From assembly GCF_000417505.1 (NCBI RefSeq), contig NZ_APHY01000013.1:1-64000 (forward strand): a stretch of DNA of 64,000 nucleotides, written 5' to 3'. The notes below the pieces were generated by a model, which was not told the DNA's origin, did not search any database, and saw only the letters and a program-made list of their open reading frames with translations. Position numbers and translations under genes: made by a program. Source of the DNA: Megasphaera sp. NM10. Lineage in GTDB: Bacteria; Bacillota; Negativicutes; Veillonellales; Megasphaeraceae. Positions 6,740-29,649 of this stretch are shown here, piece by piece. The number at the start of each line of letters is the position of its first letter. Position 1 is the stretch's first letter.

Positions 6740-6838
6740 TCAGTGTCTGAGCGGATCCTGGCCCTGGCATCCTGCTGCCAGCAGCAGGATGACCAGGATC
6801 AGGAACAGCGTCGTCATAATCAGGAAAAACAAATCCAA
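6740..6838 (-). CDS. very small membrane or lipoprotein-like peptide
   Basis: A short frame of about 32 residues starts at TTG 6836-6838 behind AAGAGG, or at the GTG overlapping the stop of the prim-pol gene. It encodes a strongly hydrophobic segment ending in LLLAAGC, which resembles a lipobox, then a short polar tail. The position and translational coupling support a real gene, but the length makes this uncertain. Confidence 0.4.
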   Translation of the reverse strand: MDLFFLIMTTLFLILVILLLAAGCQGQDPLRH

Positions 6839-6843
6839 AACGT

Positions 6844-7695
6844 TCACCTCTTGTTATAGCTGCGGGCCAGTGTCCGCTGGCCGTATGTCGTACCGTCGCT
6901 CCAATGGACTTCATCCCATTTATCGCGCATCCGGCCCGATGCCCGGAAGATACGGTCAGTCTGGTCCAGGTCGTTGCCATTGCGGAAATTGACGTTCCAG
7001 CAGAAATAGAGGTCATCCCGGCTCCGGTCGCCTGTCCAGGCGTCTTCGCCGTTGTACAGGGCCTGCAGGATACGGCCGTTCTTCTGCTTGAACAGGGCTT
7101 CCAGCAGCTTTTCATCACTGCCTTTCAATACCGCTGGTTCTGCCTTCTTCCGGGCGGCCGGCTTCTTCTCTTCCTTTACGGCAGGGGCAATACGGGATAC
7201 CAGTTCATCCAGCGCAGCCTGACCGTTCCGTATCGGCGCATCGAGGATGGCGTTGCCGGTCACAGTGAAGTATCGGTCCTGTGCATAGACCTCGATGGCA
7301 TCCTTGCGGATGCCCCGCTGCCCGTTTTTGAAGCGTCCGGCAATGATGATGTGCAGTCCCGTCCCGGACGGGCTCTTTTCACAGTATGAATCGAACCGGT
7401 CCACCAGTTCCTGTGCATCTTTCTGGATATGGCCGCCTTCATCGATGCAGTGGTCGATGTCGATGCCCACAAAGGGGTCATCGGCTGTAAAGACAAAGCC
7501 CAGCCCGTCATAGCGATAGGCAGCCCGGCAGGCTTCCGAATACGTCCCCCACGTAAGGGGATTGTTGACCTGGGCCGGTTTCCCTGTCTTCGGGTCGTAG
7601 GGCATCTTCACTTTCTTCACCTTTTTGCCCTGACGTTTGATGAATGTCTTCCAGACGACCCACTGTGCACATTCCCTCAATGCTCTTGGTATCAT
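6844..7695 (-). CDS. NrS-1-like primase-polymerase (AEP superfamily)
   Basis: This 283-residue protein has the order of motifs of a plasmid/phage prim-pol. The metal-binding pair lies in VGIDIDHCID (D79, D81), the nucleotide-binding motif in KSPSGTGLH (H115), and the third acidic motif near EVYAQDRYFTVTG (E135-D140). The C-terminal QTDRIFRASGRMRDKW resembles the helix-bundle domain of NrS-1 polymerase. Such enzymes synthesise primers and extend them. No helicase domain follows in the same chain. It would support replication of the plasmid-like element from the iteron region at 12.1-12.4 kb. Confidence 0.82.
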   Translation of the reverse strand: MIPRALRECAQWVVWKTFIKRQGKKVKKVKMPYDPKTGKPAQVNNPLTWGTYSEACRAAYRYDGLGFVFTADDPFVGIDIDHCIDEGGHIQKDAQELVDRFDSYCEKSPSGTGLHIIIAGRFKNGQRGIRKDAIEVYAQDRYFTVTGNAILDAPIRNGQAALDELVSRIAPAVKEEKKPAARKKAEPAVLKGSDEKLLEALFKQKNGRILQALYNGEDAWTGDRSRDDLYFCWNVNFRNGNDLDQTDRIFRASGRMRDKWDEVHWSDGTTYGQRTLARSYNKR

Positions 7696-7713
7696 CGTAC
7701 TGCCTCCTTTACG

Positions 7714-8667
7714 CTAGCGTTCCATGCCGCGTGACTTCGCGTTTTCCTGTGGTCTGCGGACGGTGACACGGCGTTTGGCCGGTGCCTTTTCGATGGTCTT
7801 TTCTTCTGCCTTTTCAACCGTCTTTTCGGTTTCCTGGCGGCGCCATTTAGCCGGTGTCGCCTTGGACCGGGCGATGGCCTGCTTTTCCTGGGCTTCGGCC
7901 CGCTGGCGGCTCTGTTCGATTTGGCGGCTCGCTTCGTTCAGCCGGGCTGTCGTCCTCGACAGGACGCTTTCAACGGCATGATAGGCCTTAGCTTTGATGG
8001 CGTTCCGGACCCGGCGCGGCGCTTCGGAAATCGCATGGTACGTGTCCTGTACCGTGTGGGATACAGTATCACGGATTTCCTTGAGAGGGTGCTTCTGGTT
8101 CTGTTTGACCGTTTCCTGGAAGATACGGAAGGCTTCTGCCGTGACCATGAGCTGTTCCGGTGTCAGCGTCGTCCGTGAGGCTTCCCGCAGTTCCTTGATG
8201 GTTTCCTGCATCTGGACCATCTGGGCCTGCATCCGGCGGTTCGCTTCGCGCTGCGCTTCCAGCTCCTTTGCATACATCTGGTTCAGCTTCTGGATCTGTT
8301 CCTTGAAGGCCTTGCCAGCTTCATCAAAGGAATCCCGCGCCTTTTGGATAGCCGTCTGCTTGACAGCCTGCGGCTTTTCCTGTTCATAGGCTTCCCGGCA
8401 GTCCGACAGGTTCTGGTTGATGGTTTTCTGCTTCTTGGCATGTTCCTTCCAGACTTCCGGCTGGGAGTGGCCGCAGTCCTGTTCCATCTGCCGGTAACCT
8501 TTCATCTGTGTCGTCATGTTCTTGGCGGCTTCCTTGACTGGCTTCAAGTCCTTTTCCGGCACGACCTTTTCCGTCTTTGCCATTTCCTGTGTTGATTCCT
8601 GATAGAACTGGGCTTCCCAGGCATCGAGTTCTTCCTGAGAGATTTCTTCATACATATCCTGGCTCAT
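7714..8667 (-). CDS. coiled-coil hypothetical protein
   Basis: The start MSQDMYEE (ATG 8665-8667) follows GGAGGAG with good spacing. The roughly 317-residue protein is almost wholly charged and helical, with long Gln/Glu/Arg/Ala stretches (about residues 100-160 and 215-290) predicted to form coiled coils and a basic C-terminus. No enzymatic motif is visible. Proteins like this accompany relaxases or partition functions on plasmids, but nothing here proves either role. Confidence 0.6.
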   Translation of the reverse strand: MSQDMYEEISQEELDAWEAQFYQESTQEMAKTEKVVPEKDLKPVKEAAKNMTTQMKGYRQMEQDCGHSQPEVWKEHAKKQKTINQNLSDCREAYEQEKPQAVKQTAIQKARDSFDEAGKAFKEQIQKLNQMYAKELEAQREANRRMQAQMVQMQETIKELREASRTTLTPEQLMVTAEAFRIFQETVKQNQKHPLKEIRDTVSHTVQDTYHAISEAPRRVRNAIKAKAYHAVESVLSRTTARLNEASRQIEQSRQRAEAQEKQAIARSKATPAKWRRQETEKTVEKAEEKTIEKAPAKRRVTVRRPQENAKSRGMER

Positions 8668-8682
8668 AATATTCTCCTCCAA

Positions 8683-9114
8683 TTACTGACTAATCTGTGC
8701 TTTCAAAACGCTGGTCATCTGTACGGTTATCGCATTGATGCAGTCCAGGGCTTCCACCATGCCGCCGGCATGGACGAGGTATCCGCCCCGACTGGCGTCT
8801 CCTGCCAGGGAGAAACAAATCATCATTTCCGATACCAGCAAGTCCACCTGTTCCATCAGGCCCTTGGCCATAGCCTTCATCAGTTCCAGGCTGTGCGTAT
8901 CCCACGGCAGGCCCGGCCATTCCGGATGGAACAGCAGTGGCATAGCGTTCCCTAATGTGCACATGGCTTCTTCCGGCGCCACATTGGCTGCCATTAAGAA
9001 TCGCTCCGGCCCCTGCTTTGGCCTGGCACAGATGATGCAGTTCAGGTTCATCGAATCAATATCGTTCAGGAAGTCACTGAACCGTTTCCTTAATTTCATG
9101 TCGATTTCATTCAT
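8683..9114 (-). CDS. hypothetical protein
   Basis: This 143-residue protein has a helical N-terminus, a CIICARPK motif, a central WPGLPWDTHSLELMKAMAKG segment and a Gly-rich region (GGYLVHAGGMVEALD). AGGAG lies nine bases before the ATG. It is packed between the ArdC-like and coiled-coil genes, 15 bases from the latter. No family is recognised. Confidence 0.6.
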   Translation of the reverse strand: MNEIDMKLRKRFSDFLNDIDSMNLNCIICARPKQGPERFLMAANVAPEEAMCTLGNAMPLLFHPEWPGLPWDTHSLELMKAMAKGLMEQVDLLVSEMMICFSLAGDASRGGYLVHAGGMVEALDCINAITVQMTSVLKAQISQ

Positions 9115-9131
9115 TCAAATCAGCTCCTTTC

Positions 9132-10331
9132 TTATCGGCTCATGCCCTTTGTCTTGTCCGTCGTCGTGCGCCGGACAGCGACGCGGCGTTTCCGTTTCGG
9201 CTTGTCCGGGATGGTGATGGACCGGTGGATGGGCTTGAAATCCCGTTTCTTCGCCTTTTCCGGCTCTGGCTGAGGCGCCGGTTCTACAGTCCTTGCAGCC
9301 ATTTCGGCAACGTGCTCATCGTTCTTCGTCTGCACCTTCTGCATGTCACGCTCGATCATGTGTTCCTTGATGTAGTCCGTTATCTTCTGTGCTTCAGCAG
9401 CCGCCCGGAAAAGCTCGTCCGGATCCTTTTCGATGACCTCAGCCCAGCTCTGCAGATAGGCCACATGATTCTCATAGTGTTCCTTGCCTGGGGCTACGCC
9501 ATATTCCTGCCCCAGGAACATGGACGTCATTTCAGCCCGCAGTTCCTCCTTGGCATAAATCGGGCCGCCGAACCCATCAGAATTGGTGATGCCTTCCCGG
9601 TTCATCCGGCTTTCAGCTCCCGTAGAGTGGGCGATTTCATGGGCTACGGTCCCATAAAAGGCCCCTAGGGACTTGAATTCTTCCCTTGGCATGACATGTA
9701 CACAGTCTTCATTGACTCGGTAGAAATTCTGGTCTGTCTGGTCGAACCGGACCTTGGCTTCACTGTTGGCAATCATGGCTTCCATGGCCGCGTTCCGGTC
9801 CTTTTCATCAATGGTGATGTCATGAGGCCTTTCCGGCGGGATGTTGGCAATCTGGTCGCCGTTGAAGACGATGTAGCGCCGGACCAGCGGCGGATTCAGC
9901 CGTCTTACAGCGGGTCTCATCCGGCCTGTTTCCGGGTCGGGTTCTATCTTCGGCACCAGCTTCCCCGTCTTCGGGTCTTTTTCCATGAGGGTCTTCGTGT
10001 ACTGCCAGTATTCGATTGGGATACCCTTGGCCCCCTTCTTGATATGAGGCTGCTTTTCAAAGGGAAGCCCTGCTTTCTGCAAAGACTTCACCTGGTTGAA
10101 GGTAGCCCAGCGGGTGTCCTTGAAATCAAATTGGTCGGCAGCGACAGTGAGCATCATGTTGTTGATGCCGTGGTACTTCATATCCTTGCCCTGCAGGTCG
10201 GCTACAAGGTTGCGGTGAGGATGGCCATAATGGCCGCTGTCCCAGAAAAAGGGCTTGCCCAAACGGATGTCCTCTACGACACGCTTTGCCAGGGCTTCCC
10301 GTTCTTCTTGGATTTTCGGTGGTAATGGCAT
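9132..10331 (-). CDS. ardC: ArdC-like antirestriction protein (zincin metallopeptidase)
   Basis: The 399-residue protein has the two-domain plan of ArdC: an N-terminal ssDNA-binding region (about 1-160, with YHGINNMML and WATFNQVKSLQKAG) and a zincin-like domain with HEIAHSTG at 231-238. Downstream Glu residues (YAKEELRAEM) could complete the metal site. ArdC proteins protect incoming plasmid DNA from restriction during conjugative transfer. A basic tail follows. Its presence argues that this left element is, or was, transferred as DNA between cells rather than in a virion. Confidence 0.88.
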   Translation of the reverse strand: MPLPPKIQEEREALAKRVVEDIRLGKPFFWDSGHYGHPHRNLVADLQGKDMKYHGINNMMLTVAADQFDFKDTRWATFNQVKSLQKAGLPFEKQPHIKKGAKGIPIEYWQYTKTLMEKDPKTGKLVPKIEPDPETGRMRPAVRRLNPPLVRRYIVFNGDQIANIPPERPHDITIDEKDRNAAMEAMIANSEAKVRFDQTDQNFYRVNEDCVHVMPREEFKSLGAFYGTVAHEIAHSTGAESRMNREGITNSDGFGGPIYAKEELRAEMTSMFLGQEYGVAPGKEHYENHVAYLQSWAEVIEKDPDELFRAAAEAQKITDYIKEHMIERDMQKVQTKNDEHVAEMAARTVEPAPQPEPEKAKKRDFKPIHRSITIPDKPKRKRRVAVRRTTTDKTKGMSR

Positions 10332-10346
10332 ATGATCAGCTCCTTC

Positions 10347-10481
10347 CTATTTCGTGCGCTTGGCATTGTCTTCTTCCGATTCATTTTCCAGTTCCTGCTT
10401 TTCTTCATCTGTGAGCAGGTCAGCATCGCGCGGATCCATGCCGCCGTACTTTTCTTCAAAACGCTTATCTGCTTTTTCCAT
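10347..10481 (-). CDS. small acidic hypothetical protein (44 aa)
   Basis: The frame begins at ATG 10479-10481 behind AAGGAGAATCCAT and encodes MEKADKRFEEKYGGMDPRD followed by a Glu-rich helix. The stop is followed by AAGGAGCTGATC, the ribosome binding site of ardC. The strong ribosome binding site and tight packing support a real gene. It may be a small accessory or inhibitory protein; no family is recognised. Confidence 0.55.
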   Translation of the reverse strand: MEKADKRFEEKYGGMDPRDADLLTDEEKQELENESEEDNAKRTK

Positions 10482-10495
10482 ATGGATTCTCCTTC

Positions 10496-10795
10496 CTACA
10501 ACTTGAAACGGTTCTCGATATTATACGGATAGAGCCTGTTTATCATCTCCTCCCGACGTTTCTGGTATTCCGGCTGATGACTGACTTCCCGGACCAGCTT
10601 CTTGCCATAGTGGCTGATGACCCGGTTCGGACTGTACTTCTGCAATACCTGGGCCAGCTTCAACGGTGAATATTGCATCCCCGGCATGGTCATGCGCAGG
10701 AAACGTATATCTGCCTCGCGCTGTGCTTCCATCCCAGTGATGTCCTGCCCCTTCATGAAGCGCTTGTACAGCGCTGCCAAAGATGGCTGTGCCAT
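10496..10795 (-). CDS. hypothetical protein
   Basis: The start MAQPSLAAL (ATG 10793-10795) follows AAAGGAGGG with six bases between. The 99-residue product is basic and helical, with a KLVREVSHQPEYQKRREEM segment. It has no membrane segment. It precedes the 44-residue gene and ardC in the same direction and is not recognised. Confidence 0.55.
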   Translation of the reverse strand: MAQPSLAALYKRFMKGQDITGMEAQREADIRFLRMTMPGMQYSPLKLAQVLQKYSPNRVISHYGKKLVREVSHQPEYQKRREEMINRLYPYNIENRFKL

Positions 10796-10817
10796 CACAA
10801 TCCCTCCTTTCCTCAAA

Positions 10818-10946
10818 TCACAAAATGTAATCTTTGTAGTAATCATCGGGCTTATGGAACAATCGCCTCATTATGCGATACCGCCAAAGCGGATTTTGCT
10901 CACGCATAACGGCTCCCCAATAATCAATGAAATCAAGTTGGCTCAT
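10818..10946 (-). CDS. small hypothetical protein (42 aa)
   Basis: A frame from ATG 10944-10946 encodes MSQLDFIDYWGAVMREQNPL and a basic tail ending DYYKDYIL. The same frame is open upstream but lacks a start with a ribosome binding site, and that part overlaps the better-supported 57-residue gene. It may be translated by coupling. Confidence is limited by its length. Confidence 0.4.
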   Translation of the reverse strand: MSQLDFIDYWGAVMREQNPLWRYRIMRRLFHKPDDYYKDYIL

Positions 10947-10980
10947 AATCCAAAAACAGAACTGCACAGGGAAATATCGT

Positions 10981-11154
10981 TCATTTTGTTTTTTTTCGTT
11001 CGGCTTCAATATGGATTTTTTTGAGTTCTTCCTGCGTGCAGTGATTTTGGAATACCTTGGGCAGCACTTCTTCATAAAAAGCCTTTTCTAAGATTGGCTC
11101 CATCCCTTTCTGAAGCCAATGTGAAAAATAATCTTCATGGGAACGTGGCTGCAT
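10981..11154 (-). CDS. small hypothetical protein (57 aa)
   Basis: The frame starts at ATG 11152-11154 (MQPRSHEDYFSHWLQKGMEP) behind a GGTGAG sequence. It contains a helix FYEEVLPKVFQNHCTQEELK and a Lys-rich tail. The amphipathic pattern looks like a genuine small phage or plasmid protein. No family is recognised. Confidence 0.5.
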   Translation of the reverse strand: MQPRSHEDYFSHWLQKGMEPILEKAFYEEVLPKVFQNHCTQEELKKIHIEAERKKTK

Positions 11155-11195
11155 GGACTCACCTCGATTCTGTTATACCTGTTTTGCCTACTCAC

Positions 11196-11217
11196 AAGCC
11201 GTTTACACGGCTTTTTG
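11196..11217 (+). terminator. plus-oriented intrinsic terminator
   Basis: A perfect 7-bp stem, AAGCCGT against ACGGCTT with a 4-base loop, is followed on the plus strand by TTT and a further T-rich stretch. It points against the direction of all neighbouring genes, so it may end an antisense or small plus-strand transcript. Confidence 0.45.
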
Positions 11218-11282
11218 TTTTATCTGCGATAAATGAATCATTCGCAGGAAGAAAACGTTTTACAAACGATTCTGTGACGATT

Positions 11283-12032
11283 TCAGGGCATTTCCCGCTG
11301 GCGCTCCCTGCTTCTGTCCTGGCCTTTGCTCCGCATGACGGTCACGTGGCGTTTCTGGCACAGGGTGCATTTCTTTTCGTGGTTCTCATGGGTGATGGCC
11401 TTTTCTTCGGTCATGTCTTTCTTCTTATCCAGGGAATAGGTGATTCCTTTCTTGTCCATGTACCAGCGCAGCGATTCCAGACGGCCCCGGTACTGCTGCT
11501 GCCAGAAGTCCACATCATCCTGGTTGCCGGCGCTCATGTCGTCCTTGATTTGGGCATCGATATAGCGGAGTTCCCGGCTTTCATCGAGGATGTACTGCTT
11601 CTCGTTCTTCGTGAGGCCCGACGCCAGCAGCATTTCCTGGTCATCCGTATCATCGTCATCGAAGCCGATTTCCACAGACAGGTCTTCCTTTCTGCCGTCT
11701 TCCTGGATCAAAGGCTGATTCCTGCGGGCTGGTTCCCGTTCGATGTGGTGTTCCTTCAAGTAAGCATCGAGCTTTTCCAGGCGGTTCCACCATTGCGCGG
11801 CCGCTCTCGTAGCCCCGTAACGGTTCCCTTTCTCTGTTTCTTCCACAACCCGGCGGTCCAGGTAACGGAGTTTGGCAGCTTCCCGTTCCACATCCTTTTC
11901 GATTCTCCGAAGCTTTGCCAAGGGAGCTACTAAAATGGATTCGGCTTCCCGGCAGTTGTCGTGGATACAGAATGGATAAATCGTCTTTTCCTTTTTCTGG
12001 TCTTCCTTCACTGTTCTTCCTTTTGATTGCAT
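11283..12032 (-). CDS. charged helical hypothetical protein
   Basis: The ATG is preceded by AAGGAG with good spacing. This 249-residue protein is very charged. It has two similar helical sections (about 45-95 and 140-195), each with a leucine/arginine pattern followed by a W-rich element (AAAQWWNRLEKLDAYLKE and FWQQQYRGRLESLRWYM), suggesting an internal duplication. A possible knuckle CTLCQKRH lies near the C-terminus. It is the first gene left of the iteron region. Confidence 0.6.
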   Translation of the reverse strand: MQSKGRTVKEDQKKEKTIYPFCIHDNCREAESILVAPLAKLRRIEKDVEREAAKLRYLDRRVVEETEKGNRYGATRAAAQWWNRLEKLDAYLKEHHIEREPARRNQPLIQEDGRKEDLSVEIGFDDDDTDDQEMLLASGLTKNEKQYILDESRELRYIDAQIKDDMSAGNQDDVDFWQQQYRGRLESLRWYMDKKGITYSLDKKKDMTEEKAITHENHEKKCTLCQKRHVTVMRSKGQDRSRERQREMP

Positions 12033-12114
12033 GACTGGCTCCTTCCCTACACATACATACTGTGTATATACTCTAATCTCTTAATCTCTAGCGTCACATT
12101 GTGCGCACAGTCGC

Positions 12115-12441
12115 GTCACATTTGGCGCACAATGTGACGCCCTTATAAATGGCTTAGTATTGCTATAATTTCCTGTTTTTGAAACACTTTATCGTACCGA
12201 TGTTGACACCCCTGTTGATTTCACTAGGCATGACCTGTTGACAGGCTGTTGTCACATTTTTGCACATTTGGCGCACATCGGTGTCACATCTGGCGCACAA
12301 TGTGACGCCCCTATAAATGGCTTAACATTGCCACTTCCCGCTGTTTTTGAAATATTTTATCGTGCCGATGTTGACAGGTATGTTGATTGCATGTTGATTG
12401 CATGTTGACAGGCTGTTGATTTCCTATTCACAAATGTTGAC
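12115..12441. other. iteron-rich putative replication origin
   Basis: No gene is visible here. A block of about 108 bases at 12115-12222 recurs at 12283-12390, each copy holding GTCACAT, GGCGCACAATGTGACGCC and a TGTTGAC/TGTTGAT pair. TGTTGAY recurs at 12201, 12213, 12236, 12369, 12381, 12392, 12403, 12414 and 12435, mostly 11-12 bases apart, so on one face of the helix. Such arrays are typical iterons for a replication initiator. The Phage_rep_org_N-type gene lies immediately upstream in transcription. Confidence 0.72.
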
Positions 12442-12506
12442 TTTTCTGTATTTTTAATCAAAATAAGCCGCTTTTAGCGAATTTTATTTCATATCAATGA
12501 ATGAAA

Positions 12507-12953
12507 TTATTTCTGTCCTGGCGGTAATGATTTCCGCTGTTGGGCACGCAGCTTTCTCATGCTAGCCCGGCTGGAAGCATTATGGCGTTGTTTTCGCATC
12601 CGCCTGGCACTGTCCGTTTCACTGCCTACGAGCATTTCAAAGTGAGTGATGTACAGGATTTGCGGCTCAATCCAGGACAGCAGCCCTGCTTTCAGCAATG
12701 TATCAACGCCAACTTTAACGGTTGAACTGGACATCCTTACCTTGTGGGAAAGGTCTTCCGGCGTATAAGGGACTTCTACATCTCCCAACAGCCGAACCAG
12801 CCTTCCTTCTGTATTCAGTGCGATTTTGCACAGTAGGATATACATGGAAAAGTAATTACCACCTTCGTCCTGAGTCAGCAGCCATTCGATGGGATCGCTT
12901 TCCAGGAAATCCTCTGGCAGCTTAATGAAATACCAACGCTTGTTCTTACTCAT
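12507..12953 (-). CDS. replication initiator / phage replisome organiser N-terminal domain protein
   Basis: The 148-residue protein begins KNKRWYFIKLPEDFLESDPI, the characteristic opening of Phage_rep_org_N proteins. A winged-helix-like region follows (YTPEDLSHKVRMSSSTVKVGVDTLLKAGLL). The C-terminus is very basic (RRMRKQRHNASSRASMRKLR). The length equals that domain alone; full replisome organisers are longer and carry a DnaD-like part. It probably binds the adjacent iterons to start replication of the left element. Confidence 0.78.
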   Translation of the reverse strand: MSKNKRWYFIKLPEDFLESDPIEWLLTQDEGGNYFSMYILLCKIALNTEGRLVRLLGDVEVPYTPEDLSHKVRMSSSTVKVGVDTLLKAGLLSWIEPQILYITHFEMLVGSETDSARRMRKQRHNASSRASMRKLRAQQRKSLPPGQK

Positions 12954-12971
12954 AAATACCTTCTTTCACCA

Positions 12972-13184
12972 TTACGCCTGTTCCGTATATGGCGGAATTG
13001 CCTGGTTCGTCGTAATGGAAATATCGTAGTGTTTGGGATGAATCCCACAGGTGACAATATTTTCGGCATCCGAATCGTAGCCGATGTACTGGCCGGTCTT
13101 GTTGTTCCATACCACATTCGTAAGGACAATCTTCCGGCCGTTGATTTCAAGGTTGATCGTAAACTTATCAGTCTTTGTTTTCAT
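12972..13184 (-). CDS. hypothetical protein
   Basis: This 70-residue protein looks entirely beta-stranded (KFTINLEINGRKIVLTNVVW, then NIVTCGIHPKHYDISITTNQ). It overlaps the end of the excisionase-like gene by 17 bases and precedes the replication gene, so it belongs to the early operon of the left element. It is not recognised. Confidence 0.55.
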   Translation of the reverse strand: MKTKTDKFTINLEINGRKIVLTNVVWNNKTGQYIGYDSDAENIVTCGIHPKHYDISITTNQAIPPYTEQA

Positions 13185-13440
13185 TGTCTGTATTCCTTTC
13201 TGCGGCCTTTACAAGTGCGACAAGATCCTTTCCTTCGTAGTACTCTAAAAATTCATTTAGCTTGAATTTGCTCACTCTGGGATAGCGCCCAAAATTAATA
13301 GCTGGCAACATTTTCAGCTGAATCAACTTGTGAACAAATCCCTGAGATGTTTTCAGCTTCTTTGCGAGTTCGGGAACCGTAATCAGTTCAGGCATACTGT
13401 CATAAACGATTTTGACTTTGATGTCCGGAATGTTTGCCAT
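13168..13440 (-). CDS. excisionase-like helix-turn-helix protein
   Basis: The chosen start is MANIPDIKV (ATG 13438-13440), behind GAAGG. Residues about 18-65 form a MerR/Xis-type winged helix: ITVPELAKKLKTSQGFVHKLIQLKMLPAINFGRYPRVSKFKLNEFL. Small proteins of this type direct integrase towards excision or act as regulators. A TACGG-TTTT-CCGTA operator lies just upstream at 13486-13499, so it is likely under CI/Cro control. Its role as Xis for the integrase at 15861 is an inference. Confidence 0.65.
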   Translation of the reverse strand: MANIPDIKVKIVYDSMPELITVPELAKKLKTSQGFVHKLIQLKMLPAINFGRYPRVSKFKLNEFLEYYEGKDLVALVKAAERNTDNENKD

Positions 13441-13482
13441 ATTAATCACATCCTTCTTTATTGTTGCTTCTTTGAAAAATTT

Positions 13483-13731
13483 TTATACGGTTTTCCGTAC
13501 TTTATGGGTAAAAAAAAGAGCAGATACTTCGTCAGCTGTTAAAGGTCGATCGATAGCTTGATTAGCTACCTTATCAATTTCTCGTTGCGTAAAAGGAACC
13601 TTATTCCCTAAACGTTCATATACGGCAGTTGTCCCAATGCCTAAAAATTTAGAAAAGTTGCGAATGTTGCCAAAGTGTTCAATAATAAACCCCCTCAGCT
13701 GCGCATAATTAAATTCCATATCTTGAACCAT
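13483..13731 (-). CDS. Cro-like phage regulator (DUF739-type)
   Basis: The 82-residue protein has a compact helix-turn-helix: YAQLRGFIIEHFGNIRNFSK, then LGIGTTAVYERLGNKVPFTQ. This is the pattern of Cro/DUF739 regulators. It is transcribed divergently from the CI-like gene by the consensus promoter at 13775-13803. GGGAGG precedes the ATG. It should oppose the repressor at the shared operators. Confidence 0.75.
   Translation of the reverse strand: MVQDMEFNYAQLRGFIIEHFGNIRNFSKFLGIGTTAVYERLGNKVPFTQREIDKVANQAIDRPLTADEVSALFFTHKVRKTV
13486..13499. promoter_or_regulatory. operator O1 (TACGG-TTTT-CCGTA)
   Basis: A perfect 5-bp inverted repeat around TTTT lies within the 3' end of the Cro-like gene and 46 bases before the excisionase-like start. 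It would let the repressor control the downstream operon separately. Confidence 0.65.
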
Positions 13732-13755
13732 ATTTTTTCCTCCCTTCTACTTTTA

Positions 13756-13769
13756 TACGGTTTTCCGTA
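13756..13769. promoter_or_regulatory. operator O2 (TACGG-TTTT-CCGTA)
   Basis: This second perfect copy lies just downstream of the -10 element of the minus-strand promoter, around the expected transcription start of the Cro-like gene. Occupancy would block that promoter. Confidence 0.7.
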
Positions 13770-13774
13770 ATTAA

Positions 13775-13803
13775 ATTATAAGGCCGATATCCCATCTTGT
13801 CAA
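13775..13803 (-). promoter_or_regulatory. consensus sigma-70 promoter for the Cro-like operon
   Basis: On the minus strand TTGACA (13798-13803) and TATAAT (13775-13780) are separated by exactly 17 bases. Both hexamers are perfect. Operators O2 and O3 flank it, so it should be strong but tightly repressed. Confidence 0.85.
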
Positions 13804-13815
13804 CGGTTTTCCGTA
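13802..13815. promoter_or_regulatory. operator O3 (AACGG-TTTT-CCGTA)
   Basis: This copy differs from the consensus at the first base. It overlaps the -35 hexamer of the leftward promoter by two bases. Confidence 0.65.
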
Positions 13816-13833
13816 AAGGTGAATTATTTACAG

Positions 13834-13862
13834 TTGTAATTGTTCGTTTTTCCGTATATAAT
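13834..13862 (+). promoter_or_regulatory. promoter for the CI-like repressor, with degenerate operator O4
   Basis: TTGTAA (13834-13839) and TATAAT (13857-13862) are 17 bases apart on the plus strand. A weaker operator (TTCGT-TTTT-CCGTA) fills the spacer at 13843-13856, consistent with autoregulation. Confidence 0.7.
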
Positions 13863-13893
13863 GTAGGTAAAGTAATCGATTGGAGGTCGCTAT

Positions 13894-14388
13894 ATGGAGC
13901 CAATTTTGATTCAACGGATTAAGCAAATGATGCAAATTCGTAATATAACACAAGCTGATCTTGCTAGAATTACAGGAATCAGGGCATCATCTATTTCGGA
14001 CTATTTATCTGGGAAATATCAACCTAAACAAGATAAAATTGCATTGATCGCAGATGCATTATCTGTAAATCCTGGATGGCTAATGGGATATGATGAGCCA
14101 AAAAAGCCTGTTTCTTCAAGCATAGTTGAGAAAAAAGGAAATTGGGATTTATTGGCGCATTATCAAAAGTTATCTGAGAATGAACAAAAAATAATTGCGA
14201 CTATGATAAAAAATGGGATTCAAGATTTTACTGTAAAACATGATACAGATAACTTAAAGATGACCAGAGAGTTACTATCTTTATTCAATCAATTAGATAT
14301 TGAAGATCAAATCGAGATAAAAGGTGAAATCAAGGGAATGTTAAAAGCCGATAAGTATAAAGTGAAGTCGAACGACGAGGCAATCTAA
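13894..14388 (+). CDS. CI-like XRE-family repressor
   Basis: This 164-residue protein has an N-terminal XRE domain (IKQMMQIRNITQADLARITG, ASSISDYLSGKYQPKQDKIA, ADALSVNPGWLMGYDE). A helical C-terminal half rich in acidic and lysine residues follows and is probably for dimerisation. There is no visible LexA-type Ala-Gly cleavage site or Ser/Lys protease domain, so induction may need another factor. GGAGG precedes the ATG. It is divergent from the Cro-like gene and shares its operators. The region is AT-rich compared with its neighbours. Confidence 0.82.
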   Translation: MEPILIQRIKQMMQIRNITQADLARITGIRASSISDYLSGKYQPKQDKIALIADALSVNPGWLMGYDEPKKPVSSSIVEKKGNWDLLAHYQKLSENEQKIIATMIKNGIQDFTVKHDTDNLKMTRELLSLFNQLDIEDQIEIKGEIKGMLKADKYKVKSNDEAI

Positions 14389-19664: not shown

Positions 19665-19985
19665 TTACGTTTCCGTGGACGTCAGCATGTCGGCAAGTGC
19701 CGAGATGGCATCCTCAAGTGCTGCGACACGCTGGGTCAGCGTCGGTGTGCTGTCGCCGTCGAGGATAAGCGTGTCAAACTGCGCCTCCACCTGCACTTCC
19801 GTTAGTGTTGTCTGGATATTTTTTTCGTCAGCAGTCCAGACTTTCGCGGTTGTCTCTGCGCCATCGGTGCCGATCTGCGTGTGGTCTACCTGCTTGATAT
19901 TCTGCCTGAGATAGACATTGGCCGTGCCGTCTGGCAGGGCTTCGTATTTAATCTTTTCGGGTTCGCTGTCGTAGTAAACTAACAT
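19665..19985 (-). CDS. tail-associated protein with C-terminal coiled coil
   Basis: The start MLVYYDSEP (ATG 19983-19985) follows AGGAG. The 106-residue product has a beta-rich N-terminal half and a heptad-patterned end (TQRVAALEDAISALADMLTS). Proteins of this shape precede XkdX in many phages. The gene overlaps the 3' end of the reverse transcriptase by 38 bases. It does not have the four-helix pattern of an Avd protein. Confidence 0.62.
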   Translation of the reverse strand: MLVYYDSEPEKIKYEALPDGTANVYLRQNIKQVDHTQIGTDGAETTAKVWTADEKNIQTTLTEVQVEAQFDTLILDGDSTPTLTQRVAALEDAISALADMLTSTET

Positions 19986-21138
19986 GTGTCTTGCTCCTTT
20001 CATGGTTCGAGACAACGTTTTGAGCTGATGCGAAGGCCTTTTCGAGGTTGTATTTCTGCCATGCTTTGTGGCAGTCTGAGTGTAAAAAACACCCTTTATA
20101 TGACACAAGCCTTTGTGCCTGCGTCAGTGTAGCAAAGGCGGTCCGCTTTATACGGAGTGCCATGCGCCGCGCATGGATGAATGTCTTGGCGCGGATACGT
20201 ATTTTACCGTTCCGGTGAATGACGTACCCCATCATGTCTATAGGTTCGACATCGTACCGCTTGATGTGCCAGTTCGGCTTAACGGTGAGATGCAGCTCGT
20301 TTTTTGCGTATTCGCACAGCGAAAGAACGGCTTTTTTGAGTTTGCTTTTGCTGTGCGAGAAAAGCAGCATGTCATCCATATACATAATCATGTACGACAC
20401 GCCGCCGCCGGCCATCGCCTGACGATACAAAGACGATAACATATACTGGCTTATCCACTGGCTAGGCAGTGCGCCTATCAAAATGCCGTCAGTTACCGGT
20501 GCATAAGAATCGAGCAGCACTCCCCATAAATAGAGCAAGTCGTTATTTCCTACGTCGTGCGACAGACGCTGTTTTATAAGCTCTCTATCCATGCTTGGAA
20601 AGCAGTGGTAAATATCAAGCTTTACAAAATAGCGCATCTTGTCGGTATATTTTATGCCGTGTCGTTTGCAATAATCGATGTGGCAATTGTTTTTGCGCGT
20701 GTACCGCTGAATCATGCGTACGCCGTAAAGTTGACCGCGGCCAACCATTGATGAGCACTGTTGGTCCACCATTTTCCTTTCCCACAGCTCCATGCAAGAA
20801 TACACAGCTACATAGTCGTACAAACGCTGTAAGCAGCTTTCGTTTCCGATGAGCCGCGTCTTTTCTGATACAGCATCATATTTTTCGGATGCACGTACTT
20901 TGAATTTCGGTATGTTGTGCGTTTTTATAGCATGCGCAATCTGTTTTGCAAATAGCATGGCCACATCGTCGATTGATGCACCCTCTAAAAGCTTCTCATA
21001 CTCTTCTGTTGTTGTCCCGTTTTGTAAAATTTCACGTTTGAAATCCCGGCGCCGTTTATGACGTCGCAAGCAGTCTGCGATGAACGGCGCAATAGTTTCG
21101 GGATTTGTTATGTTTATGCTTTTACAACACTTTTTCAT
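19948..21138 (-). CDS. DGR-type reverse transcriptase
   Basis: The 396-residue protein carries the RT motifs in order: YFVKLDIYHCFPSMD (about 170-184), the DGR-specific IGALPSQW at 221-228 (SQ where retroviral and group II enzymes differ), the catalytic YMDD at 253-256 and DMMGYVIHR. The N-terminus is basic and helical. DGR enzymes copy an RNA from the template repeat with adenine-specific errors, and the cDNA replaces the variable repeat. The template repeat lies 110 bases upstream. The ATG has only a weak GAAAGAG ribosome binding site. No Avd gene is adjacent. Confidence 0.95.
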   Translation of the reverse strand: MKKCCKSINITNPETIAPFIADCLRRHKRRRDFKREILQNGTTTEEYEKLLEGASIDDVAMLFAKQIAHAIKTHNIPKFKVRASEKYDAVSEKTRLIGNESCLQRLYDYVAVYSCMELWERKMVDQQCSSMVGRGQLYGVRMIQRYTRKNNCHIDYCKRHGIKYTDKMRYFVKLDIYHCFPSMDRELIKQRLSHDVGNNDLLYLWGVLLDSYAPVTDGILIGALPSQWISQYMLSSLYRQAMAGGGVSYMIMYMDDMLLFSHSKSKLKKAVLSLCEYAKNELHLTVKPNWHIKRYDVEPIDMMGYVIHRNGKIRIRAKTFIHARRMALRIKRTAFATLTQAQRLVSYKGCFLHSDCHKAWQKYNLEKAFASAQNVVSNHERSKTHVSLLRQRTRKD

Positions 21139-21247
21139 ATTGGTTTTCTCTTTCTTGATAATCCCCGGCTTTCATATCTTACTAGCCGAGCGGTGACTTT
21201 ATCAATTTTCGCCGCAGCGGGGATAATACAACCATAAAAATGAATCA

Positions 21248-21367
21248 AGAAAAGCGCGAACCGTTGTTCCACCACGAGTTGCCCAGGCCGTTGTCGCAAT
21301 TGGCGTAGGACAAGCCACAAATCGGCAGCCCGTTGTTGAGATTGCCGGACCGGAACAAGGCACGAAG
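21248..21367 (-). repeat. DGR template repeat (TR)
   Basis: This 120-bp sequence matches the variable repeat at a fixed offset of 194 bases. Read on the minus strand in the target gene's frame it has nine AAC/AAT codons and TAC, ATT and GAC at positions that vary in the VR. All 19 adenines lie in such codons. A stop codon follows immediately (RFS then TGA), so the TR is not itself coding. It lies between the target gene and the RT, in the same direction. Confidence 0.95.
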
Positions 21368-21384
21368 TTTGATTGCATCACCCT

Positions 21385-21399
21385 AGGGGCAAAGCCCCT
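21385..21399 (-). promoter_or_regulatory. DGR hairpin downstream of the variable repeat
   Basis: AGGGGC and GCCCCT pair around AAA, ten bases beyond the stop codon of the target gene. Studied DGRs need a hairpin or cruciform just downstream of the VR for efficient retargeting. The position between VR and TR fits. There is no T-run, so it is not a typical terminator. Confidence 0.65.
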
Positions 21400-21408
21400 C
21401 TGGCCGGC

Positions 21409-23238
21409 TTACGCCGTCCATTCACCCCTACAGCCCGCAGCAGAAAGGCGCGAACCGTCGCGCCACCACGAGGCGCCCAGGCCGTAGGCGCAATAGGCGG
21501 AGGACAAGCCACAAAGCGGCAGCCCGTCGCCGAGACCGCCGGACCGGAACAAGGCGCGAAGATCCGTTGCTTTGTTCGTATAAACGGCGTCACATGTGAA
21601 CGTGGAGGATGAAGCGCCGACACTGTCCGGATAGTAAATACCATCACTGTACTTATTCGCTTTGATGTACTGCCATGATTCTGTGCCGAGATATTTAATA
21701 TCTGTGGCTTTGTAATCAGATGTGATAGCCGTCGAGTATTTCGTCGCGTTCTTACAAATATAAGGTGTCCAATAATAATTCGTTGTGTCGCCACTGTCTT
21801 GGAAGCCGTTCAGAATCGTGTCCGCAACAACCTGCCATTGCCCCCACCCGAATTCAATGCCCTGCAATTTGCACGGGTGCTTTGCATCCGTAGGGTTCAA
21901 GGACCCCGTATTTCCGAGCACGTTATCGCAGGACCCGGTCCGCCAAAAATACGTATACCCTACCGTCGCGCCTTTTTGAGCGCCGGATGCCGCGCGTACC
22001 GCAGTATTAAAAGTTTCATCAAAATAAATGGCGGTGTACTCGGTGCCGCTGATGGTAACTTTTTCCACGTTTTTGATGACGTAGCCATCTTTGCCGCTGA
22101 TGCTGCTCGTCCCCTGACAAACGCCGTCGTGATTATCGCTGCCGGTCTGATTATGCAACTTCAGCACTGACCCGACCACGAAAATATCGTAGTCAGACGC
22201 TTTTGTAAGTAAGCGGTGCGTATTAGTTTCAGCCACGAGATTTTCGCATTCTGTATAGTACGAGTAGCAGCCGTTCAAGATGCCATCCAGCGTCAGCGAC
22301 CCCAGGATGACGTGAGTCATAAGCTGCAAAAACGAGTTATCCGTAGAACATTCACCTGCATACCCTTTGCCATTCAATGCTGCCGACGTGTGTGCCGAGT
22401 TATGCGATACATCATGGGCCGGCACGGCGCCCGAGCAGCACGAATAGCCCCCTGCTGTATTGACACCGGCCGCATATTTGCCGTGTACGACCCACGGGCG
22501 CACCGTGCCGTCAAGCCGGACGGACTCCGGCAGAGGCTGGCAATGCGGCTTTGACGCGTCGTAGCCGATGCGATAACCTTCAGTGTATTCCTGGCTTGAA
22601 TTTTCGCAGGGGTTTGTGTAGTAGTGATACCCCGTCATTTGCAAGACGCCGACATACACGTCCTTATCATAGCGCTTGAAATTGCCGGTAACACCCTCGA
22701 TTGCAGTGATTTGTACATCGAGCGTGTCTTGATTGATAATCCAGTTGCAGTCGATGCAAGCAAAAAGCGGCAGCCCCGCGTAGTCATCCTGCCCGGCAAC
22801 GTCCGCGGTGCTCGGCGTGCATGTCAGCTTGGTGTTATCGCCGAATTTTGTGCCGGTACTGACGCTCGATACGGCCGGATCGCTAAATTTTGTACCGCCG
22901 TCCCACGAAAAGCTGCTTTGCAGTAAGTTATAAAAATTCGTTGCGCATGCTGTAATTGCCGCCGCCGTTGGGTAGGTCACTGTGCCGTCATCGGCCGCCG
23001 TATTCACGACTTTGTGCAGTTGAAAATACAGTTTCATAGCCCGTTTGAAACCGGTTGCCGTGCCGTCGATGCAGGCGAGTACGTACGGGTCGAGTGTCTC
23101 GCTATTTGCAATGGCCTGCGACTTGGCGATGTCTTCGAGAGCTGTCTGGATGCCTTTAAGGTGTTCGTTCGTCTCTGTCTGTCCTTTGAGGGACGGCAGG
23201 ACGCCCTGGGCGACTACCGTGTCTGTTGTATCGCTCAT
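21409..23238 (-). CDS. DGR-diversified tail-tip/receptor-binding protein
   Basis: The 609-residue protein ends in a C-type-lectin-like or formylglycine-enzyme-like fold typical of DGR targets: LRALFRSGG, then a variable surface, then SWWRDGSRL. The variable repeat encodes about residues 560-600. The N-terminal part (SLKGQTETNEHLKGIQTALE) is helical and probably attaches it to the tail. The middle is beta-rich with many Cys residues (for example CIDCNW, YSCCSG, CYSYYTEC). It should sit at the virion tail tip and bind the host receptor. It follows tail-fibre genes and precedes the DGR template and RT. Confidence 0.9.
   Translation of the reverse strand: MSDTTDTVVAQGVLPSLKGQTETNEHLKGIQTALEDIAKSQAIANSETLDPYVLACIDGTATGFKRAMKLYFQLHKVVNTAADDGTVTYPTAAAITACATNFYNLLQSSFSWDGGTKFSDPAVSSVSTGTKFGDNTKLTCTPSTADVAGQDDYAGLPLFACIDCNWIINQDTLDVQITAIEGVTGNFKRYDKDVYVGVLQMTGYHYYTNPCENSSQEYTEGYRIGYDASKPHCQPLPESVRLDGTVRPWVVHGKYAAGVNTAGGYSCCSGAVPAHDVSHNSAHTSAALNGKGYAGECSTDNSFLQLMTHVILGSLTLDGILNGCYSYYTECENLVAETNTHRLLTKASDYDIFVVGSVLKLHNQTGSDNHDGVCQGTSSISGKDGYVIKNVEKVTISGTEYTAIYFDETFNTAVRAASGAQKGATVGYTYFWRTGSCDNVLGNTGSLNPTDAKHPCKLQGIEFGWGQWQVVADTILNGFQDSGDTTNYYWTPYICKNATKYSTAITSDYKATDIKYLGTESWQYIKANKYSDGIYYPDSVGASSSTFTCDAVYTNKATDLRALFRSGGLGDGLPLCGLSSAYCAYGLGASWWRDGSRLSAAGCRGEWTA
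21442..21561 (-). repeat. DGR variable repeat (VR)
   Basis: This copy lies at the 3' end of the target gene. Compared with the TR there are 17 differences; 15 are at TR adenines (minus strand) and give substitutions such as N to G, D, Y, A and R, I to L, Y to S and D to A. The other two are single T-to-C changes near the two ends. The end nearest the stop codon (GGTTCGCGCCTTTCT) corresponds to the initiation-of-mutagenic-homology site. Confidence 0.95.
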
Positions 23239-25068: not shown

Positions 25069-28000
25069 CTACCATACCCCCCATCTCATAACCAAAACGT
25101 TTTTATCGTTGTATACTTCCGTAACACTGTCTTTAATTACTACACGACGTCCGGAAGTTGCCGACTGAAACGTACCAATCGTCGCGGTAATTGCCGATAG
25201 CGATTCGACGTCCATTTTCTCTGCGGTCACGGCCTTAGATTGAATCATGTCCTTTGTGATGACGTTATCGCCGATTTTGGTCGTGCCATCGATGTTGATG
25301 AGACTGCCCTTGATGTAGAAGCCGGTATGGTCCTGCTGGAGGTAGCTCGTCATGTCGCCCTGCGAGATTTTCGTAGCGATGCTGTCAGCCATTTGCGCAA
25401 TGGCCGAATATGTCTTCGCTTTTGTCGCATCGTTAAGGTTCGTGACGACGGATGTGACCGCCGACGACGTCTGTGTAATCTGTGACGTCAGCGATGCGTT
25501 CGTCTCGTTCTGAGCGGCATTGATTTTGTCCTGCGCCGCTTTATTCGACGACACCGTGGAGGAGATGCTGTCCGACTGCTGTTTCAGCGCTGAGATGGCC
25601 TTGTAGCCGGTTTTACTGGCATCTGTGTTGTTGAGGTTCGCGACGACGGTATTGATTCCCGAAGTGTTGGCCTCGATTTTTGTCAGCAGATTTTGGTTGG
25701 TCGTATCCTGCGCCGACTTGTTACTGTTGACGGTGACGGTAAGGCTGTCTGCCGTCTGCTGGAGCGTCGTAAAAGCGGTGTAGCCCGTTTGCCCCGGCGC
25801 TTTATTCAGGTTAGCCACGACCGTGCTGATGCCGGAGGCGTTCGTTTCGATTTTACTGAGCATCGTCGAGTTAGTGCCGTCCTGCGCCGTTTTATTGCTG
25901 GCGACGGTTGCAGAGATGCTGTCTGTCGTCGTCTTCAAGCTTGAGATGGACTTATAGCTGCTGTCGCCCGGCGATTTGTTGAGCTCATCGATGACGCCGT
26001 TGATGGCCGTTGTCGCTTCGGACCGTGCTTTATTGACGTCCTCCTGTGTGGATTGAATCAAACTCGGCAGCGTCGTCTGCGTATCCTGCACAGCCTTGTC
26101 AATGATGGCGTCGACCTTCTGCCGGGTCACTGCCTGATCGGCGAGAAGCGACGTATCGACGAGCTCTTTGACGGTGCATCGAGTGGTCGCCGAACGTTCA
26201 CCTTCGCCGAAGTAATCAACATACGCGACACTAACATCATAAATACCCGCCGCGCAGGTGTAGGTCACGACGTTATTGACGGAATAGACGCAAAGGTCAT
26301 TGATGTAGATGTTCATGCCAACACAATCATCCGGAAGTGCCACGGCGACGATACTCATACCACCCAGTTTATCTGTAACCGTAGGCGGAGACGGCGCTTT
26401 CGGCGCTGCCTTCGAGTAAATGACAGATGCAGCGGCGCTATACTTGCCGTCCGTGCCGCAGGCATAGACGTACACGTTACCGGTACGTTCCGTCAGTTTG
26501 ACGTCGGCCTGGAGACTATTCGTGCGGAGTAAAAGCGCATCGTCTTTCGTCCCCGCGTGTAAATCCGTACGTACTTCGTAGTACGCGATATCTGCGTTCG
26601 TGACCGCGCTCCAAGAGACGGTACACCGGCTCTTGTTAAAAACAATAGACAGGTTGCTCGGTGTGTTCGGGATAGTCGTTCTTGGCGCGCAGAGCTGGTC
26701 GACGTGTGGCGCGTTGTCTGGCAGTACGTATTCTCCGAGCGCGTTGGCCGTGCAAATTGCAATACGATATGTATCACCGGATACACACTGCGGAATCATG
26801 AGTTTGTTGACGCCTTCGCCAGCGTAAATCCACGAGCTGTAATAGCCGAGCTCGTCGGCAGATACGCCGTCTTTGATAGTAAGATTTTCAATCGGTGCAT
26901 GATTTGGCTTGTAATAAACACGCCCGGAAAGGCCACTCGGCCCCCAGGTTACGCGCAGATCATAGCAATCTGTCCCGTCGAGGAGTTTCCGGTATACAGG
27001 ATTTACAACGATTTCCGTCGGCGTCGTCGCCGATTGAACGGCACCAGGAGCGACAGTAATCATCGTCCCCGACGACTTCTGGAACTGGTTGACTGTAAAG
27101 ACTTTAACGTAGTACGTCGTATCGACGTTGACTTCAACTTCAAAGTACTTGCTGATGGCCGTCCCGAGAGATACAAAGTTCTTGTTGTCCGTCGAAACAA
27201 ATACGGAGAAGTACTGATATACCCGGTCCGCAGGATATTGCCAGGAAAGATACATCTTCGAGTGTACCTGACCGGCGCTGTCCTTCCAGAGCGACTGCCG
27301 ACCTACGAGATTGGTTACGTTCTGGACAGTGCTGACGTCGGATTCGCTGTTGTTCGGTGTCGGGATTGTATAGTTTTCAAGGAAGCAGTTTTCGTTATAC
27401 TCAAGCGCTTCGATTTCGCGGACAAGGTCTTCGGTACGGCTGATAGACCGCACGACGAATTTCTTCGTTCCTTTGCTGACTTCGGCAATATCAAAGATGT
27501 CACCCGCAGCGGGAGCTGTCGCCGGCGTACTGGCAAGAACAACTGTCGTTGTCGAGTCGCCGACCGCAATCGACTTACAGCCGACTTCATAGCGCGTATC
27601 ATCGGCAGAGGACCGATAGGCAAACGTATAGGTCTTCGTACTGTCATAGGACTTCATGACCTCGTTGACGACGACCGTTGTGCCGTTTACGGAGGCGATA
27701 CGGCCGCTGGTCTGCCACATCGGCACATCGTGCGCGACGTAGATGACGTCCCCGACTGTACAGGCTATGGCGTCAATAGACGCCTGGAAAGAGACGGTCC
27801 GGACCATGTAGGCGTTACAGTAGAGCTGGAATTTCGCTTCCCGGTACGCCTGTTCGTAATCAGTAATGCCGTCATACGTCAGCTGACTTGTGGTATCATA
27901 TTCGTCGGTATCAAATGTGGGTCCAAAGACTTTGACTGTATCCCGTTCGTAGTCTTTCTGGGCATTTGTGAAGGTCAGCTCAACGGCATTGGCACGGTCT

Positions 28001-29649
28001 GACGTCTGGAGGAATGTTTCCGAGAAAGTGCCGGAGATGATATTCCCCATACCAAACATTTGGACCGCTTCCTTTGGCCCATCCCAGACGCAACCGTATT
28101 TTGTGCCGAAAAGCTCGACAATGCCGCGGCCGACCGGGGCGATGTAACGGTTTACGACGTCCAGCATTTCACCAGACGTGTTGATTTCGATATTGATTTT
28201 GAGGTTGAACTGGTCGCAGTATGCAGCCCATTCCGAAAACTGGTTGTACATCATCAACGACGCGTCGGCGCCGTGGTGGACGAAGACGGTGCTGCCGTTA
28301 CGGGCGTCGGTAATCTTGTTGGCCCGATGTACCATATCATAAGCCGCCCAGGCAGGATTCGTCGCCGCCTTTTCTTCATAGGCGTTGGTATTCGGGTTCC
28401 AGACGTAGACAGTCGAACGCTGTTTCATGAATTTCAGGGTTGGCGACCCAGACAGCTGGTCCGTCGCCATCGCCCGGATGCCGATAAGAGCCATACCGGG
28501 ATAACTAAAATCGTCGTAAACGATGCCGCTGACACCAGTCCACCAGATGCGGGTACAGGCACGAGTCGAGGTGGTCGGATAGCCGCGGGAAACGACTTTA
28601 ACGCGGACGTAGTACTGACCCGCTTCAAGATTATCGACACGGTACTGTTTCCGGATAGCCGAAGACTTACTGCCGGTAATCTTCGCATTTGTCGCAAGCT
28701 CTTTCCAATCTCCGGTACCTTCTTTGGCATACTGCGCCTCAATAGTGACATACGTTTCGTCGAGACCGCCTTTATCGTTCGCGTAGTACAAGCCGTTCGA
28801 GCACTCCACGTAGATGATGAGGCCCTGGGTCGCAGATCCCGTGACAAGGTCGGTACGCCATTCATTGTCGAGGATTTCGTAACTAAGCGTCTTCGTGCTG
28901 ATGGTGTCATTAAAGTTCGGGATGATGTCCTGGACGTTGAGGCCTTCTCGCGTATCCAGTTTGACGTCCTTATAGTTTTCAATCGGGTTGTCATTCAGCT
29001 GCACGTCATAGATTTTCAAAGGGCCGTAGCCGGCGCAGACGAGCCAATTGAGATACTGCTTATCCGAGTCGCTGTTAATGTACTTCCCGATGGTCTGACC
29101 GCCGCTGCGGACCGTGCCATAGGTAATTGGAATCGGGTTGTTCTGGCCGTTCGTGGTCGTAATCCCTGTCCAAGAGTAGGTCGGGTTTTCAGACGTATCC
29201 TTAAAGCCGCTGGTGTTCGCGGTACCGAACGCACGCTGAATAAGCGAACCGCCGATAAACATGACGGCTGCAGCGGCGAGATACCCGCCAATCGCGGCAA
29301 AACCCGTAGCACTTGCCAGGGCGGCACCGCTGAAACTACCGGCGGCAACAAGACCACCGACGCTCATGGCGGTAACGGACAGAGCGACGGTCGCGATGAT
29401 CAGCAGCGGATTCTTGCCATGCCCTTTACCGACGACCGGCGAAAAGACGATAAAGTCTTTATCCTGTACCGCCTGGGTGCCGTTGATGGTGTAACTGTTG
29501 CGGGAAATCACCATATCCGGCAGCGTCAGGTCCTTTGTACACTGCTGCACATAGTAGCTGACATCTTTCCCTTTTACGTAAGGCAGCGTGCGTACTTCTC
29601 TGTTCTTTTGTGGTTCAAATGGGTTTTTTACGAAAACGACGGTAATCAT
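25069..29649 (-). CDS. J: tail tip attachment protein J-like (central fibre)
   Basis: The 1526-residue protein is the lambda gpJ counterpart by order and length (gpJ is about 1130). An N-terminal membrane-like Ala/Gly segment (about 80-140) is followed by the conserved baseplate-hub region with NPIPITYGTVRSGG, then fibronectin-type domains (about 800-1130). A long coiled-coil region with four near-repeats of a SDSISATVASNK/AQDGTNSTMLSKIE unit follows (about 1220-1420), then a short tip domain (TKIGDNVITKDMIQ). It contacts the host surface and holds the tail tip. It overlaps the K-like gene by four bases. Confidence 0.88.
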   Translation of the reverse strand: MITVVFVKNPFEPQKNREVRTLPYVKGKDVSYYVQQCTKDLTLPDMVISRNSYTINGTQAVQDKDFIVFSPVVGKGHGKNPLLIIATVALSVTAMSVGGLVAAGSFSGAALASATGFAAIGGYLAAAAVMFIGGSLIQRAFGTANTSGFKDTSENPTYSWTGITTTNGQNNPIPITYGTVRSGGQTIGKYINSDSDKQYLNWLVCAGYGPLKIYDVQLNDNPIENYKDVKLDTREGLNVQDIIPNFNDTISTKTLSYEILDNEWRTDLVTGSATQGLIIYVECSNGLYYANDKGGLDETYVTIEAQYAKEGTGDWKELATNAKITGSKSSAIRKQYRVDNLEAGQYYVRVKVVSRGYPTTSTRACTRIWWTGVSGIVYDDFSYPGMALIGIRAMATDQLSGSPTLKFMKQRSTVYVWNPNTNAYEEKAATNPAWAAYDMVHRANKITDARNGSTVFVHHGADASLMMYNQFSEWAAYCDQFNLKINIEINTSGEMLDVVNRYIAPVGRGIVELFGTKYGCVWDGPKEAVQMFGMGNIISGTFSETFLQTSDRANAVELTFTNAQKDYERDTVKVFGPTFDTDEYDTTSQLTYDGITDYEQAYREAKFQLYCNAYMVRTVSFQASIDAIACTVGDVIYVAHDVPMWQTSGRIASVNGTTVVVNEVMKSYDSTKTYTFAYRSSADDTRYEVGCKSIAVGDSTTTVVLASTPATAPAAGDIFDIAEVSKGTKKFVVRSISRTEDLVREIEALEYNENCFLENYTIPTPNNSESDVSTVQNVTNLVGRQSLWKDSAGQVHSKMYLSWQYPADRVYQYFSVFVSTDNKNFVSLGTAISKYFEVEVNVDTTYYVKVFTVNQFQKSSGTMITVAPGAVQSATTPTEIVVNPVYRKLLDGTDCYDLRVTWGPSGLSGRVYYKPNHAPIENLTIKDGVSADELGYYSSWIYAGEGVNKLMIPQCVSGDTYRIAICTANALGEYVLPDNAPHVDQLCAPRTTIPNTPSNLSIVFNKSRCTVSWSAVTNADIAYYEVRTDLHAGTKDDALLLRTNSLQADVKLTERTGNVYVYACGTDGKYSAAASVIYSKAAPKAPSPPTVTDKLGGMSIVAVALPDDCVGMNIYINDLCVYSVNNVVTYTCAAGIYDVSVAYVDYFGEGERSATTRCTVKELVDTSLLADQAVTRQKVDAIIDKAVQDTQTTLPSLIQSTQEDVNKARSEATTAINGVIDELNKSPGDSSYKSISSLKTTTDSISATVASNKTAQDGTNSTMLSKIETNASGISTVVANLNKAPGQTGYTAFTTLQQTADSLTVTVNSNKSAQDTTNQNLLTKIEANTSGINTVVANLNNTDASKTGYKAISALKQQSDSISSTVSSNKAAQDKINAAQNETNASLTSQITQTSSAVTSVVTNLNDATKAKTYSAIAQMADSIATKISQGDMTSYLQQDHTGFYIKGSLINIDGTTKIGDNVITKDMIQSKAVTAEKMDVESLSAITATIGTFQSATSGRRVVIKDSVTEVYNDKNVLVMRWGVW

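Follow-up and report, generated by a model that had tools for sequence, protein, structure and literature searches.

Diversity-generating retroelements (DGRs) are a known phage system in which a fixed template is copied, its A letters are scrambled and the product is pasted into a target protein. In a DGR, the VR lies within a coding gene, in frame and mostly at the 3′ end, and the TR lies outside the gene. We analysed the first 64,000 bp of a contig of Megasphaera sp. NM10 (NZ_APHY01000013.1; hereafter, the window), in which a first-pass annotation had proposed a DGR with the order target, TR and RT, all on the minus strand. The positions of the ORFs and of the repeats bore out this arrangement. 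The target gene (21409–23238) encodes a tail protein of 609 residues, the length originally given, whose C-terminal, C-type-lectin-type variable domain was assigned from phrog matches, an AlphaFold2 (AF2) model and homologous targets in relatives. The VR (21442–21561) corresponds to codons 560–599 of this gene, in frame, and the TR (21248–21367) is placed after its stop codon. The RT gene (19948–21138) is separated from the TR by a spacer (21139–21247) that, by analogy with the Sp region of BPP-1, presumably contains the 3′ portion of the template RNA as well as the cDNA priming site. A small phage gene (19665–19985, minus strand), outside the DGR proper, starts within the 3′ end of the RT gene, overlapping it by 38 nt (19948–19985). 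The RT gene likewise overlaps its neighbour in LBR48, FP_Epona, Perkons, vir215 and cr50_1, which suggests a conserved insertion context.

The surrounding prophage carries genes for a J fibre, tape measure, minor tail protein, portal, terminase, head protease, DNA polymerase and integrase. The central tail fibre gene J (25069–29649, minus strand; phrog_31, 7.7e-170) lies upstream of the DGR module, which is thus just downstream of J, in the tail-tip setting originally proposed. No tRNA that could indicate an att site was found within the window, and no direct repeats longer than 13 nt flanked the prophage. Beyond the integrase, on the side away from the prophage, is a separate phage- or plasmid-like replication block (2385–14000), including a gene for a 928-residue protein (3716–6502; phrog_31742). 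This block may represent a second mobile element.

On the minus strand, the TR and VR aligned without gaps over the full 120 nt assigned to them in the first-pass annotation. They differed at 17 of the 120 positions, and 15 of these differences fell at the 19 TR adenines, as previously counted (hypergeometric P = 1.0e-13). From TR to VR, the adenine changes comprised eight A to G, five A to C and two A to T. The two non-adenine changes were both T to C, one close to either end. All 11 A-containing TR codons were altered in the VR, and the alignment reproduced the reported conversion of AAY codons to those for G, D, Y, A and R. No TR codon can be converted to a stop codon by adenine mutation, and ∼1.6e11 protein variants are possible from the TR. 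When the entire window was scanned blind for adenine-biased repeats at offsets of up to 12 kb, this pair alone was returned; as a control, the scan recovered the annotated TR and VR of BPP-1 exactly. In the 2.6 Mb draft genome, the TR was present once and matched one VR. No further VR for this TR was found elsewhere in that draft, all of which was searched, and additional VRs were therefore rejected.

The identity of the two repeats ends near a C/T mismatch in GCGC(C/T)TTTC, the C occurring in the VR and the T in the TR. Similar mismatches of one to two bases occupied the same place in most relatives. The mismatch is as expected for an IMH/IMH* pair, and we annotated the 3′ end of the VR (GGTTCGCGCCTTTCT; 21442–21462, minus strand) as a putative IMH, the exact bounds of which we infer. 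Downstream of the target stop codon, between the VR and the TR, is an inverted repeat, AGGGGC-TTT-GCCCCT (21385–21399, minus strand), that is likely a retrohoming hairpin or cruciform. A hairpin followed the VR in 55 of 68 relatives, versus 9.2 expected by shuffling, and was often GAGGGGGC-GAAA-GCCCCCTC-like. In BPP-1, a role of the post-VR hairpin has been shown, and phage DGRs have a GRNA loop consensus (Guo et al. 2011, PMC3240598); by contrast with this reported tetraloop, the loop in the window is TTT. The folding energy of the TR–RT spacer was no better than that of shuffled sequences in the window (z −0.9) and was marginal in relatives (mean z of −1.3 versus −0.9 for an RT-internal control). 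By energy alone, an unusual spacer fold was therefore rejected.

The reverse transcriptase and the search for Avd

The RT ORF is full length, encoding 396 residues with the YMDD and IGALPSQW motifs on which the first-pass annotation had based its DGR-type assignment. The protein matched RVT_1 (PF00078; 7.8e-9) and the phage RT family phrog_1423 (6e-77). It matched models of group II, retron and DRT enzymes only weakly, and its matches to the NCBIfam group II, retron and Drt3a models were far below the curated cut-offs. The window RT has the IG..SQ of DGR RTs, whereas group II RTs have QG..SP. In a maximum-likelihood tree, a split with support of 99/98 separated DGR RTs from those of group II introns and retrons. 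The comparison of RT families recommended in that annotation thus placed the window RT with the DGR enzymes and not with those of group II introns or retrons. In the same tree, the window RT and five human-gut phage RTs formed a subclade (100/100) on a long stem, the nearest named phage RTs being those of Arawn, FP_Epona and LBR48. BPP-1 Brt (8ub7) was the sole RT found by sequence in the PDB. The AF2 model of the window RT (pLDDT 92) likewise had 8ub7, the BPP-1 DGR RT, as its best structural match in the PDB, and motifs, tree and structure concur on a DGR-type enzyme. The RT differs from its own clade at a few conserved columns (A223, Q231).

The cassette has no room for avd between the VR, TR and RT. 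In searches for bAvd (PF22296), neither the whole genome nor any of 35 clade contigs (0/35) gave a match over the cut-off; the BPP-1 control was found. An avd encoded elsewhere in the genome was rejected, nothing having exceeded the cut-off. Fusion of Avd to the RT was also rejected: the N-terminus before the first RT motif is ∼20 residues longer than that of Brt and models as RT. The avd-position ORF of a second DGR in this genome, described below, was missed by PF22296, so a very divergent Avd may escape the profile. As judged from profile searches only, then, Avd appears to be absent.

Avd is essential in BPP-1 (PMC12875486), and about one quarter of DGRs are without an accessory homologue (PMC7290462). 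As cited in the latter source, lineage 3 of Wu et al. (2018) has the order target–TR–RT and no avd. Most Faecalibacterium phage DGRs are also without avd (PMC5883640). The DGR in the window has this target–TR–RT order without avd and does not have the avd of a BPP-1-type DGR. We tentatively propose, as a possibility on the doubtful side of even, that the gut-phage RT clade to which the window RT belongs (∼90 loci) retrohomes with no Avd-like partner, the slightly longer N- and C-termini of the RTs holding the template RNA. That the termini might replace Avd in its template-RNA role is speculation. If true, such Avd-free retrohoming would constitute a mechanistically distinct type of DGR.

Adenine specificity in relatives

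Neither nucleotide relatives of the locus in phage records nor, using single-sequence peptide patterns, relatives in IMG/VR and GTDB were found. A profile built from six RTs identified 88 loci, 80 in IMG/VR and eight in GTDB. An adenine-biased TR/VR pair in the order VR–TR–RT was present at 68 of the 88, and many of the others end before the VR. Over these 68 loci, changes were present at 1002 of 1624 adenines but at only 50 of 5471 sites with another base. In 48 locus pairs whose TRs were at least 90% identical, the VRs differed at 530/986 TR adenines versus 27/3815 other sites; the pairs share members, so these counts are a description and not a test statistic. In one pair (L068 and L070), the TRs were identical and the VRs differed at 13 adenines and at no other site. 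The alignment of related VRs that the first-pass annotation had suggested as a check therefore places the variation at TR adenines. The closest RT is only ∼37% identical to that of the window, so this result holds for the clade and not for the window phage itself.

Several members of the clade have further features. Pairs of DGR copies with similar or identical TRs occur twice within a single genome or contig: L059 and L060 are in one genome (2841770359), and L065 and L083 are on one 83.7-kb contig (2877182016). The VRs of L059 and L060 differ at four adenines only, which records recent diversification. On a 141-kb phage contig (L061:2383–6185), the target and RT are open only if TAG encodes Q (table 15), which marks this locus, by its reading frames, as a DGR in a stop-recoded phage. 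The RT of another member (L019:4130–5497; MT836575) has YMDN at the catalytic YxDD, and 14 of 15 TR/VR differences at this locus are at adenines. The YMDN may be a sequencing error, a recent inactivation or a tolerated change.

The target protein and comparison with known DGRs

The target matched phrog_17147 over its full length and phrog_5302, annotated "tail protein", at 5.8e-11. Of 66 clade targets, 55 were homologous to it. An AF2 model based on 37 sequences had a pLDDT of 87, rising to at least ∼88 across the VR blocks. The only PDB matches to this model at E < 0.001 were chains of TaqVP (5vf4; prob 1.00), and its matches in a viral structure library were mostly phage tail collar and fibre proteins. 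Across the family, columns corresponding to A-containing codons of the window TR had a variability of 3.2 bits versus 1.5 bits for other VR columns. The model supports a predicted C-type-lectin fold around the VR, in line with the lectin-like end initially described. The description of the protein as Cys-rich was only mildly true: it contains 20 Cys (3.3%). The presence of the J fibre, tape measure and other phage genes in the prophage makes a receptor-binding role plausible, and this is the most likely function of the target as a tail protein.

The window DGR resembles that of BPP-1 (mtd-avd-TR-brt) in having a tail protein with a lectin-fold VR at its C-terminus, an adjacent TR, an RT that has IG..SQ and YMDD and whose model fits 8ub7, a post-VR hairpin and adenine-specific change. 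Unlike BPP-1, it has no avd between target and TR, its RT is ∼70 residues longer and only ∼20% identical, its target is unrelated beyond the fold and the loop of its hairpin is other than GRNA. In gene order, lack of avd and tail target, it is like the Avd-less lineage 3 DGRs (target–TR–RT, CLec3), such as that of crAssphage LMMB, as these are summarized in PMC7290462. It is also like Faecalibacterium phage Epona, which has an Avd-less DGR (PMC5883640) and an RT gene that overlaps the next gene. The window RT nevertheless belongs to its own well-supported subclade with a long stem, and the likeness to lineage 3, as outlined in that summary, and to Epona is one of architecture. Three DGR clades are primarily phage-encoded and seemingly diversify attachment proteins (Roux et al. 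2021, PMC8144416). By description, the window DGR is like gut phage clades 1, 4 and 6 of that study, being phage-encoded, from the gut and equipped with an attachment-type C-type-lectin target. The target also resembles Thermus aquaticus TaqVP (5vf4), a DGR variable protein with a C-type-lectin fold. The two differ in that their identity is 13–15% and TaqVP is shorter and is not annotated as a phage tail-tip protein.

The same genome contains a second, unrelated DGR in another tail module (G000:C4; L041:7416–10445). It consists of an RT gene (7416–8462), a TR (8600–8704), a 151-residue ORF in the avd position that is unrecognized by Pfam bAvd (8714–9169) and a DUF6273 target (9219–10445) with a VR (9233–9337), 12 of whose 13 differences are at adenines. 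Different DGRs occur in two other genomes of the genus (G011, L021:5158–6575; G006, L022:5568–7503), and that of G006 carries a bAvd gene.

Proposed function and alternative explanations

The window locus is a true phage DGR, and an ordinary one, of the Avd-less, target–TR–RT type already published. We are highly confident that it is a complete, probably functional element and that the prophage, a lambda-like siphovirus, carries it among its tail-tip genes. The adenine bias of the TR/VR pair, the identity of the RT, the predicted fold of the target, the conserved hairpin and the occurrence of the same process in relatives were all computed here. By analogy with the cDNA mechanism of BPP-1, a TR-containing transcript would be reverse transcribed by the RT, which would misincorporate opposite template adenines. 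This would randomize as many as 11 residues of the target's lectin-like face, with no stop codon possible, and the phage would vary what the target binds.

That no DGR is present, the repeats being two diverged gene-end copies beside an unrelated RT of a group II intron or defence system, is scarcely credible. In favour of this reading, group II and DRT HMMs weakly match the RT, but the NCBIfam group II, retron and Drt3a matches are far under the family cut-offs. The reading is further opposed by the adenine bias (P = 1e-13), the tree and structure of the RT, and the adenine bias in 68 relatives. The element could instead be a former DGR, its VR the record of past diversification and since frozen by lack of avd or other damage. 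The lack of avd here, the lack of any bAvd over the cut-off in the genome, the single VR and the departure of the RT from the clade consensus at A223 and Q231 would all fit. Against this stand a full-length RT with YMDD and a good model, and a clade that is wholly without bAvd (0/35 contigs) and yet has near-identical members with fresh, adenine-only VR divergence. We therefore consider inactivation quite improbable, and the window strain probably retains an active DGR.

A further alternative concerns the target of a real DGR: the protein might be an adhesin on the virion surface that attaches to mucus or other particles, and not the primary binder of the host receptor. Mucus binding has been proposed for some gut-phage DGR targets (PMC5883640), and the J fibre offers another candidate for binding the receptor. 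The target gene sits among the tail-tip genes, directly downstream of J, and its product is homologous to tail proteins (phrog_5302). Both points argue against an adhesin, which we regard as unlikely but worth entertaining. With receptor binding as the most likely function of the target, the phage could vary its binding and may thereby switch receptors.

To the first-pass annotation, this analysis adds the lack of avd, the test of adenine specificity across the clade, the fold predicted for the target, the hairpin and the second DGR in the genome. The DGR of this gut-type siphophage prophage is a clean one that lends itself to testing, and the second, unrelated DGR allows tests of cross-talk within one genome. 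An apparently Avd-less clade with strong, adenine-only divergence provides a test bed for DGR function without the Avd that BPP-1 needs.
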